This document shows, piece after piece, positions 7,681-11,338 of a DNA stretch of 64,000 nt (its first letter is position 1; every line of letters begins with the position of its first letter). A model generated the notes under the pieces. That model had not been told where the DNA came from, did no database searches, and saw only the letters and a list, made by a program, of their open reading frames with translations. Source of the DNA: Kushneria konosiri (lineage in GTDB: Bacteria > Pseudomonadota > Gammaproteobacteria > Pseudomonadales > Halomonadaceae). Both the position numbers and the translations under genes were made by a program. The stretch lies in contig NZ_CP021323.1 of assembly GCF_002155145.1 (NCBI RefSeq), forward strand, positions 3,472,001 to 3,536,000, written 5' to 3'.

Positions 7681-10428
7681 TTATTTGTCGAGACTGCCAT
7701 GGCAGTGCTTGTACTTTTTGCCGGACCCGCACGGACAAAGGTCATTACGACCGACCTTCGGTTCATCGCGACGTACGGTCGGGCTCTGAACGGCCTCTGC
7801 CGCCGCCACAGCCTCTTCGCTGATCTCCGGCGCCGGCACATCTTCATGCGCGACATCGGTACGCGTCATCTCGCTGGCCTGCTGTTCGCGCTGCAGGTTT
7901 TCACGACGCTCGCGCTCGAGCGTTTCCGGATCTGCCTGCTGGCGCACCTGAACATGACTCAGGATGCGCACAACATCCGACTTGATATTGTGCAACAGCG
8001 TCTGGAACAGCTCGAAGGATTCACGCTTGTATTCCTGCTTGGGATTTTTCTGGGCGTAACCGCGCAGGTGAATGCCGCGACGAAGATGGTCCATCGACTG
8101 AAGATGTTCCTTCCAGCGGGTATCGAGCACCTGAAGCATGACCTGCTTTTCAAAGCGACGCATGGTCTCGTCACCGACGGTGGCCTCTTTCTCCGCCCAC
8201 GCCTGACGAAGCTGTTCGTGCAGACGCTCACGCAGCATCTCTTCGTGGAAGCCTTCATCGTCACGGGCCCAGGCAACGACCGGCGCCTCAAGATTGAACT
8301 CCTGACGAAGATGCTCTTCCAGCCCGGGCAGATCCCACTGTTCGGCAAGACTCTGCGGCGGCACATAGCTGGAGATGGCGTAATCAAGCATCTCGACACG
8401 CAGGCCCTGAACGTTTTCAGACACGTTGTCGGAGGCCAGGATTTCATCACGCTGGTCGTAAATCACGCGACGCTGGTCGTTGGCCACGTCATCGTATTCC
8501 AGCAGCTGCTTGCGCATGTCAAAGTTGCGCCCTTCCACCTTGCGCTGAGCGCGCTCGACGGCATTGCTGACCATCTTGTGCTCGATGGCTTCACCCTTTT
8601 CAAGCCCCAGCACGCCCATCATCTTCTGCACGCGCTCGGAGCCGAAAAGGCGCATCAGGCTGTCTTCCAGCGACAGGAAAAAGCGGGTCGAGCCCGGATC
8701 CCCCTGACGACCGGAGCGGCCACGCAGCTGGTTATCGATACGACGTGATTCATGACGCTCGGTGCCGATTACGTGCAGACCGCCGGCCTCGATGACCGCA
8801 TCATGACGTTTTTGCCATTCAGCCTTGATGGCTTCGACAGCGGCATCGCCGGGATTATCGAGCGCCGCCACCTCGGACTCCCAGTTACCGCCCAGCATGA
8901 TATCGGTACCGCGACCGGCCATGTTGGTGGCAATGGTGACGGCGGCAGGGCGGCCCGCCTGGGCAATGATCTCGGCTTCACGATCGTGCTGCTTGGCGTT
9001 AAGCACGTTGTGGGCAAGCTGCTGCTTGCGCATCATCTCGGAAAGCACCTCGGAGCTTTCAATTGATGCAGTACCGACCAGTACCGGACGACCCTCGGCC
9101 TGTTTGACCTTGATGTCCTCGATAATGGCTTCAAACTTCTCCTGGGTCGTCATGAAGACCAGGTCGTTAAGATCCTTTCGCGCCCTTGGCTTGTTGGTCG
9201 GAATGACCAGCACATCCAGGTCGTAGATCTCACGAAACTCGAAAGCTTCGGTATCGGCCGTTCCGGTCATGCCGGAGAGCTTGTCATAGAGGCGGAAGTA
9301 GTTCTGGAAGGTCGTGGACGCCAGCGTCTGACTTTCCTTCTGGACTTCAACGTTCTCCTTGGCTTCAACGGCCTGATGAAGGCCTTCCGACCAGCGTCGA
9401 CCATGCATGGTTCGCCCGGTGTGCTCATCAACGATGATGACCTCACCCTTGGCAACCACATAGTCCACATCGCGGTGGAACAGATGCTTGGCTCTGAGTG
9501 CCGCAGAGACATGGTGCAAAAGCCCGAGGTTGTGGGCCGCATACAGTGAATCTTCAGCGGGCAGCAGACCGGCCTGACGTAGAAGGTTTTCGATCTCGTT
9601 ATGGCCGCGTTCGGTCAGCTCGATCTGCTTTTGCTTCTCATCGATGATGAAATCGCCGGTTTCCGGATCTTCCGGATCGTCGCTGGGGACCAGCGGTGCG
9701 ACCAGCTGATGAATGGTACGATAGATCTCGACGTTTTCATCCACTGGCCCCGAGATGATCAGCGGCGTGCGCGCCTCATCGATCAATATCGAGTCAACTT
9801 CATCGATAATGGCGTAGTTGAGCCTGCGCTGAACCTTGTCGACCAGAGAAAAGGCCATGTTATCGCGAAGATAATCAAAGCCGTATTCATTGTTGGTGCC
9901 ATAGGTAATATCGCAGGCATAGGCCGTGCGCTTGTCCCTTGGCTGCTGTCCGGCGTAGATGACGCCTACCGACAGACCCAGAAACTCATACAGGGGGCGC
10001 ATCCAGTCTGCATCGCGGCGGGCCAGATAGTCGTTGACCGTGACCACATGTACACCAAGCGCCGGCAATGCATTCAGATAGACCGCCAGGGTCGCGACCA
10101 GCGTCTTCCCTTCACCGGTCTTCATCTCGGCAATACGGCCCTCATTCAGCGCCATGCCGCCAATCATCTGGACATCGAACTGGCGCATGCCCATCACGCG
10201 CTTGGTGGCCTCACGCACGGTGGCAAAGGCTTCGGGCAGCAGTTTTTCAAGTGCCTCACCCTTGCCAAGGCGCTCGCGAAAGACCTGCGTCTGCTGCTGC
10301 AGTGCAGCGTCATCAAGAGCAGCAATGGACTCTTCAAGCGCATTGATGCGCGTGACAGCCTTGCGCATGCGTCTGATTTCCCGGTCATTCTTGCTGCCGA
10401 CCATTTTGCGTAACAGCGTATTCAGCAT
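7681..10428 (-). CDS. secA: Preprotein translocase ATPase SecA
   Basis: SecA is the motor that drives secretory proteins through SecYEG. The 915-residue protein has Walker A TGEGKT ending at K108-T109 (the same position as in E. coli), [15 protein letters not shown] in the helicase core and an arginine-rich motif VI segment ([13 protein letters not shown]). The C-terminal SEC-C zinc motif has C898, C900, C909 and H910. The start has AGGA 7 nt upstream. Directly upstream, on the same strand, lies a small secreted frame with a hairpin over its end, which may control secA translation in the way secM does in enterobacteria. Confidence 0.97.
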
Positions 10429-10442
10429 CTCTTTATCCTGTG

Positions 10443-10482
10443 TCGTCGTGTCATGTTTCTAACCAATGCAATGACACGTCGA
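10443..10482 (-). promoter_or_regulatory. mRNA hairpin at the secA translation start, overlapping the upstream frame's stop
   Basis: On the minus strand, 10471-10482 (ending CGTGTCAT) pairs with 10443-10454 (beginning ATGACACG). That gives 11 of 12 base pairs with one A-A mismatch and a 16-nt loop holding the TAG stop of the small upstream frame. The 3' arm ends 3 nt before the secA AGGA site (10436-10439). There is no T run after the stem, so it does not look like a terminator. The 5' arm consists of the codons just after the Arg-Gly-Pro-Pro motif, so a ribosome paused there would melt the stem. Pairing and positions are read directly; the regulatory role is inferred from secM-secA. Confidence 0.6.
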
Positions 10483-10809
10483 AGGCGGCCCGCGGCGCGA
10501 CAGCACATCATGGCCTGTCGACATCCCAAGCCAGGGCCGGGCAGGCAACGCCTCGCGCACGATACATGGAAGAACGGTCGGCAAACACCAGACACGCAGT
10601 ACCAGACGCCTGAGGCGATAGCGACGCCGCGACTCGGCGCGAATGTGTTCTGGCGAATGGAAACAGATTCGGATCAGCTGGGCAGCCGTGCCGTCAAGGC
10701 GAGCATCGGCCATACCGATCGGCAGGAGGCAGCCAATCAGAATACCGGCCAACCACCACCTGGTTCTAAAGCCCCGTGGCAGGCGGAATGTGCGAGCGGG
10801 ATGGGTCAT
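10459..10809 (-). CDS. Small secreted protein upstream of secA, candidate SecM-like arrest peptide
   Basis: I do not recognise this 116-residue protein by sequence. It begins with a basic segment (residues 1-17), then a hydrophobic stretch (WWLAGILIGCLLPIGM) and an ADA site near residue 36, a convincing Sec signal peptide. The mature part is short, rich in Arg and Cys, and has no known domain that I can see. It ends RRGPP followed by seven residues, with R106-G107-P108-P109 close to the stop. SecM ends in RAGP plus four residues, and other known arrest peptides use RAPP or RAPG. The frame stops 30 nt before secA on the same strand with no terminator between. The ATG at 10809 has only a weak ribosome binding site. 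It could instead be a chance frame, but signal peptide, position and hairpin together make it likely to be real. Confidence 0.6.
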   Translation of the reverse strand: MTHPARTFRLPRGFRTRWWLAGILIGCLLPIGMADARLDGTAAQLIRICFHSPEHIRAESRRRYRLRRLVLRVWCLPTVLPCIVREALPARPWLGMSTGHDVLSRRGPPSTCHCIG

Positions 10810-10873
10810 GCTGTCAATCTGAGGATCAGCCGTGATAAATTGGCGCCATCCTTATTGATCGCGCGGCAGGGCC

Positions 10874-11338
10874 ATGAGTATAAAGGGTAAAGGAGTACGC
10901 GCCCAGCCCGTGGGGCAATTGTTACGTACCCGCGGCTCTCTGGCACCGCTGATCCAGACGGCAGGTGTCCTTCTCGAGGCTCAGGAACATCTTCTGGACA
11001 AGCTGCCTGACGAGTTGAGGGATCATGTTCGCGTTGGCGGCTATCATGACGGCCATCTCACCCTGATGACGGATCGCGCCGTCTGGCTGACCTGGCTGCG
11101 CTTTGAGCGCCAGCGACTGCTGACTCTTTTGCGACAGCTTCCCGCCTTTGAGGAGCTCAAGGGCCTGACCTTCAAGGTACGCCCTATCCGACCCACCTAT
11201 ACCCCGGACGCGCGAACCCGGGAACTCCCGAAAGCCGCGGCCGACCAGCTTCGTGAATGCGCACGCGACACCACCAGTTCTCGCCTTAAAAAATCGCTTG
11301 AACGCCTGGCGTCGCATAACGGTCATGATCGCGAATAA
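10874..11338 (+). CDS. dciA: DnaB helicase loader/operator DciA (DUF721)
   Basis: The product is 154 residues of the DUF721 family. DciA proteins recruit or load the replicative helicase DnaB in bacteria that lack DnaC or DnaI. The N-terminal part carries the family core (LLEAQEHLLDKLPDELRDHVRV onward, with LTLMTDRAVWLTWLRFERQRLL). The tail is basic and probably disordered. It is divergent from the secA operon across a 64-bp gap, a common location for this gene, and ends at a bidirectional terminator shared with lpxC. Confidence 0.88.
   Translation: MSIKGKGVRAQPVGQLLRTRGSLAPLIQTAGVLLEAQEHLLDKLPDELRDHVRVGGYHDGHLTLMTDRAVWLTWLRFERQRLLTLLRQLPAFEELKGLTFKVRPIRPTYTPDARTRELPKAAADQLRECARDTTSSRLKKSLERLASHNGHDRE

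Follow-up and report, generated by a model that had tools for sequence, protein, structure and literature searches.

The window, i.e. the whole 64,000-nucleotide stretch of Kushneria konosiri DNA that was analysed, contains secA (7681..10428, minus strand; identified through SecA matches in Pfam and NCBIfam), the presumed regulated gene, preceded by a small upstream open reading frame (uORF; 10459..10809, minus strand) for a candidate arrest peptide of 116 residues. The peptide and stem features described below likewise lie on the minus strand. The uORF begins with ATG and runs for 116 codons before its stop; the secA start at 10428 follows that stop by 30 nt on the same strand, exactly as the preliminary description had it. 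Its placing of the tetrapeptide RGPP at residues 106-109, with seven residues left until the stop, was equally exact; the codons concerned are 10494-10483. On its other flank the uORF has a DciA gene in divergent orientation (PF05258, E 1.6e-9). Rfam yielded no match in 10300-11000 at E-values up to 1, and neither consensus promoters nor consensus terminators were found in 10380-11000.

A profile built from 30 homologs (A1) was searched against 275 genomes of the family Halomonadaceae and matched 257 of them, with one copy in each, the closest named homologs being those of Kushneria. Homologs are therefore plentiful, which disposes of an earlier doubt over their lack. Sixty further genomes were picked among the matches listed, and 170 loci were collapsed to 130 distinct ones (protein plus 60 nt downstream), these forming the set to which the counts below refer. 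Both the frame and its C-terminal motif are conserved upstream of secA in all 130 distinct copies; the preliminary description had named the absence of such conservation as evidence against its proposal. Eighteen family genomes gave no A1 match, two of which also lacked a secA match. The other 16, from four genera, do contain secA, with no RAPP-like frame of at least 50 amino acids near it, and 15 of these 16 loci (L092-L107) carry there an ORF of roughly 310-350 amino acids with an M23-like end, one such ORF having been confirmed as Peptidase_M23 (PF01551). Possibly these four are the genera of Oceanospirillum type whose addition to the family by GTDB is described in PMC10690426. An M23-peptidase-like gene precedes secA in many other families too, its place being taken by the uORF in the rest of the Halomonadaceae. 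An origin of the uORF from the N-terminus of that peptidase gene was considered but found no support, ten such N-termini bearing no resemblance to it by eye.

In the order, secA was located in 121 genomes of other families. Inspection of 65 loci, drawn from 41 of these families, revealed no frame preceding secA with R[AG]PP close to its end; one of the loci comprises only 215 bases. A search of the class matched three of 369 genomes. The third of these matches (genome G600, E 7e-4), covering 24 positions within the signal region of the profile, was set aside; the other two, both Halomonadaceae, are the only credible class-wide matches.

The preliminary description had seen a Sec signal peptide in the N-terminal part of the product, and inspection by eye bears this out: a basic stretch is followed by a hydrophobic core, RWWLAGILIGCLLP, and by an AxA-like end, ADA. 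The signal-peptide core, as delimited by eye (residues 17-36, RWWLAGILIGCLLPIGMADA; 10702..10761), includes L20, L24, C27, L28 and P30, each invariant in 130/130, and RWWLAGLLVGCLLP forms a conserved block across the homologs. The hydrophobic core pattern matches 129 of the 130 frames, the remaining one, L038, being one residue off. Cys27, written with both Cys codons, closes a lipobox-like LIGC (residues 24-27; 10729..10740). The strict lipobox pattern is found in 123/130, the residues after the Cys are hydrophobic (CLLP in 128/130) and an AxA-like site follows in 123/130. Further along lies the central conserved motif PEHIRAESR (residues 53-61; 10627..10653), whose PxxIRAxSR-type pattern occurs in 122 of the 130 homologs at 47-54 residues before the P-site residue defined below. 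The stretch between the signal and the C-terminal motif is basic, with a median net charge of +11, and Lys is rare, with 130 Lys against 2709 Arg among 16103 residues in the homologs; a product so basic and so poor in Lys might be a slow Sec substrate.

The C-terminal arrest block of the window's peptide reads DVLSRRGPP (residues 101-109; 10483..10509), its context across the homologs being mostly D-V-L-[TS]-[RQ]-R-G-P-P. Within it, R-[GA]-P-P is present in every one of the 130 distinct frames, Arg and both Pro residues being invariant and Gly occurring in 129. The chance of finding R[GA]PP within the last 20 residues is about 0.003 at uORF composition. Since every residue of the motif is encoded by four or five synonymous codons across the 130 frames, it is the peptide that is under selection. 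The codons predicted for the P-site and the A-site, by analogy with published toeprints, are 10488-10486 and 10485-10483, respectively. The P-site residue so defined lies 73-80 residues from the hydrophobic signal (CLLP), and the secA start follows the P-site codon by 60-206 nt in all 130 loci. After the motif there remains a tail of 2-16 residues, except in L041 (genome G074, on a single contig), where the uORF stop is lost and the frame reads into secA, through either a true fusion or a sequence error. The sole natural replacement of RGPP by RAPP is in L031 (genome G015), which is also the copy farthest from secA (206 nt).

Arrest peptides of this kind have been described previously, so that the candidate is not new as a kind: in Fujiwara et al. 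2024 (PMC10987492), arrest uORFs with RAPP-like motifs are defined as the RQH family, and the secA-upstream representative of their group uA_RQH_Pseudomonadales, bearing R109GPP, stalls both Escherichia coli and Bacillus subtilis ribosomes with fAP >0.9. According to the main text of that paper, it is the third residue of the motif that occupies the P-site in RQH stalls. Members of the family are short uORFs that immediately precede secA, secDF or yidC on the same strand; they have an N-terminal export or membrane signal and, separated from it by a spacer of over 30 residues, a conserved RAPP-like motif near the C-terminus. In the Halomonadaceae frames secA follows in 130/130, the signal is present by pattern in 129/130, the motif is invariably conserved and the spacer measures 73-80 residues. 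By these sequence features the uORF would belong to the RQH family. The motif Arg falls at residue 109 in eight of the 130 homologs. GTDB release 202 presumably places the Halomonadaceae in Pseudomonadales. The same placement, in the emended order, is made in PMC7498684. The published group and ours thus share a secA uORF in Pseudomonadales, an N-terminal export signal and RGPP near the C-terminus (PMC10987492), and very probably they are one and the same. The string 'halo' is absent from the main text of PMC10987492, which leaves the species of the representative unnamed; because none of the 65 loci inspected in 41 other families has an R[AG]PP frame before secA, Halomonadaceae is nonetheless the likely source of the group. 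RQH members lack overall similarity according to the same main text, whereas the Halomonadaceae uORFs are homologous throughout, with two further conserved blocks. The family-wide homology, the PxxIRAxSR motif, the invariant lipobox-like Cys and the selection for an RNA latch presented below were not met in the literature searched, supplements aside; PMC7897499 mentions neither Halomonas nor RGPP. In PMC12992588, RGPP is reported to be under-represented more than any other tetrapeptide in ten major groups, and frames with RAPP or RGPP to be enriched before sec genes.

Other characterised systems offer instructive comparisons. As in E. coli SecM, there is an exported peptide encoded just before secA, an R-x-(G/P)-P motif near its C-terminus and a predicted pairing of the secA Shine-Dalgarno (SD) sequence with the mRNA beneath the stalled ribosome. 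SecM differs in carrying FxxxxWIxxxxGIRAGP where the Halomonadaceae uORF has RGPP or RAPP, and the uORF is, unlike SecM, expected to stall with the third motif residue, a Pro, in the P-site. Homology with SecM was rejected: BLASTP against the E. coli protein gave E 0.06 over an unrelated stretch, hhalign gave a probability of 0.1, and 30 uORF members tested produced no SecM family match in Pfam or NCBIfam. Very probably, then, the Halomonadaceae uORF works like SecM without being its homolog by sequence. The uDF_RQH_Enterobacterales peptide of Alteromonas naphthalenivorans also bears RGPP, and its arrest opens a stem by which the SD of the downstream gene is partly masked, thereby inducing that gene (PMC10987492), the difference being that it lies upstream of secDF2 and not of secA. 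The RAPP arrest peptides ApdA and ApdP, for which a stalling mechanism is given in PMC10951233, share the R-A/G-P-P core but come from Actinobacteriota and Alphaproteobacteria (PMC10987492).

Predicted RNA pairing around the secA start was measured as cluster averages over 77 sequence clusters, while the synonymous-recoding and blocking tests employed one representative per cluster. The secA SD region is predicted to find its main upstream partner in the mRNA between -15 and +15 relative to the P-site codon, with a 77-cluster mean of 0.286. Pairing is 0.027 further upstream (-90 to -60) and 0.055 at -60 to -30, 0.08 and 0.035 in the neighbouring 15-nt bins (-30 and +15, respectively), and little beyond +30. 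The partner thus stays at the stall site although the distance to secA varies so widely. Pairing between SD and stall footprint was 0.302 in the 77 representatives compared with 0.098 after synonymous recoding (p 1.1e-7), 43 of them ranking in the top tenth and three in the bottom tenth. With the footprint blocked, opening the secA start region cost 6.6 kcal/mol in place of 9.6, whereas the recoded controls changed only from 7.3 to 6.7 (p 6.8e-9); the cost fell by more than 1 in 54/77 and rose by more than 1 in three, the recoded means falling by more than 1 in 24. The cluster-mean version of this measurement went from 9.7 to 7.0, with 52 falls and one rise among 77. A simpler shuffled-partner test was weaker, the mean unpaired SD going from 0.37 to 0.44 and that of the shuffles from 0.43 to 0.44 (p 0.009), with 46 rises and 16 falls above 0.1 among 130. 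A test based on the best SD match (70 rises and nine falls above 0.1 of 130) is to be taken only as a lead, some loci having no SD match, and the later RNA tests used a fixed window in its place. The second Pro of the motif is encoded by CCT in 49/130 frames, compared with 166 of 1187 Pro codons elsewhere in them. As a positive control, E. coli secM gave 0.54 against 0.05 and an opening that fell from 11.6 to 9.5 kcal/mol. As a prediction, an RNA latch in which the secA SD pairs with the stall site has good support at the family level.

For the window, the minimum free energy (MFE) fold pairs 10485-10471 with 10454-10437, so that the CCU of Pro109 faces the AGG of the SD. The 5' arm of this predicted stem (10471..10485) corresponds to codons 109-113, and the 3' arm (10437..10454) ends in the AGG of the secA SD, AGGA (10439-10436). 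In an alignment of seven same-genus sequences the arms are identical save for one inner-end base in one sequence, while the loop varies, and no stretch of consecutive unchanged codons in the frame is longer than that of codons 108-112. Four of the five arm codons show no synonymous change, compared with 17 of 74 other degenerate codons for invariant amino acids (Fisher p 0.016), a modest result, for which the fold had dictated the choice of arm and the alignment had been viewed beforehand. In the more distant, K. aurantia-like L009 (58% identical), a stem is predicted at the same place with different letters. The folding figures for the window speak against a latch there: the SD goes from 0.28 to 0.30 unpaired when the stall region is removed, so that folding alone does not show its release; the opening of the start region drops only from 4.96 to 4.73, and that of the SD core climbs from 2.47 to 3.33; the synonymous test finds no excess pairing (0.113 against 0.142); and the fold is no stabler than shuffles (z 0.79). 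Taken with the family tests, these figures leave the predicted latch well supported in the family, suggested in the genus and, as regards the window, not demonstrated by folding.

These observations fit a scheme in which the ribosome would translate the uORF as far as RGPP and halt there, Pro108 occupying the P-site and Pro109-tRNA the A-site. A working Sec machinery would pull on the nascent chain and release the stall quickly, whereupon translation would end and the mRNA stem over the secA ribosome-binding site would re-form. Were export poor, the stall would be long; the ribosome would occupy the 5' arm of the stem, the binding site would be free and more SecA would be made. We consider it likely that the uORF peptide is an exported monitor which controls secA through such a SecM-like arrest, switching on SecA when export fails; actual stalling, release by pulling and the response of SecA we infer. 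The conservation of gene and motif, the position before secA and the family-level codon selection for pairing between stall site and secA start all support arrest. The export-sensing analogue of SecM put forward earlier is in this sense well supported as a prediction, since the position, the export-signal-like N-terminus, the spacer and the latch at the secA SD fit the scheme. In E. coli and B. subtilis proteins, most RAPP-like motifs tested did not stall efficiently (PMC10987492), and the motif alone is therefore no proof.

It is extremely improbable that the frame is a chance ORF and the conserved element a non-coding RNA or the 145-amino-acid ORF that overlaps it on the opposite strand (10453-10890). 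Such an idea could draw on that overlap and on the weak start site. The weakness, noted in the preliminary description, is real, GGAG being absent before the ATG in the Kushneria sequences listed, but the position of the ATG is conserved and GGAG is present there in many homologs of other genera. The opposite frame is itself rejected as a true gene, for it is not conserved and is broken by a stop inside the homologous stretch in 84/130 homologs. Rfam offers no RNA family, each matching genome has a single copy, invariant residues are written with synonymous variation and pN/pS in the uORF lies at 0.07-0.22 in 11 pairwise comparisons, indicative of purifying selection. Substitutions are accordingly of the coding type, not of the non-coding type that had been named in advance as telling against the proposal. 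With the distribution across the family, we count the chance reading as refuted by these data; the uORF is a real gene. That gene could instead encode an ordinary small exported protein which acts on secA by translational coupling alone, its motif serving another role. The conserved, exported-looking product with its central motif is indeed more than a bare arrest sequence needs, but this reading is made improbable by an invariant RGPP that keeps an almost constant distance to a variable end immediately ahead of secA, and by codon selection that favours SD pairing precisely beneath the stall site.

A different possibility accepts that the peptide stalls and concerns its signal, which could be of lipoprotein type and cut by signal peptidase II at Cys27, the switch then reading lipoprotein-type export as well as Sec. 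The unvarying Cys27, conserved whichever codon encodes it, and the prevalence of the strict lipobox speak for this. Hydrophobic residues right after the Cys are, however, unusual for a mature lipoprotein, and the residues found there are hydrophobic in nearly all homologs, while an AxA-like site commonly follows; overall we regard lipoprotein-type processing as rather unlikely. Use of the lipobox would make this an export sensor of a new kind. We are more doubtful about a composite reading, in which a lipoprotein-type monitor processed at Cys27 is combined with Pro-Pro-coding nucleotides of the arrest motif that serve at the same time as the anti-Shine-Dalgarno strand in the secA latch. If it were true, arrest code and RNA latch would be one sequence, and the secA supply of the family would be set by a sensor of lipoprotein export.

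On the favoured reading, that of a SecM-like monitor of export, a secA switch with no detectable SecM ancestry would be near-universal in a family of halophiles and missing from its sampled neighbours. The family provides 130 natural variants around RGPP, a natural swap to RAPP and a predicted RNA latch with measurable codon constraint, and the regulatory half of RQH arrest peptides is therefore directly testable here.
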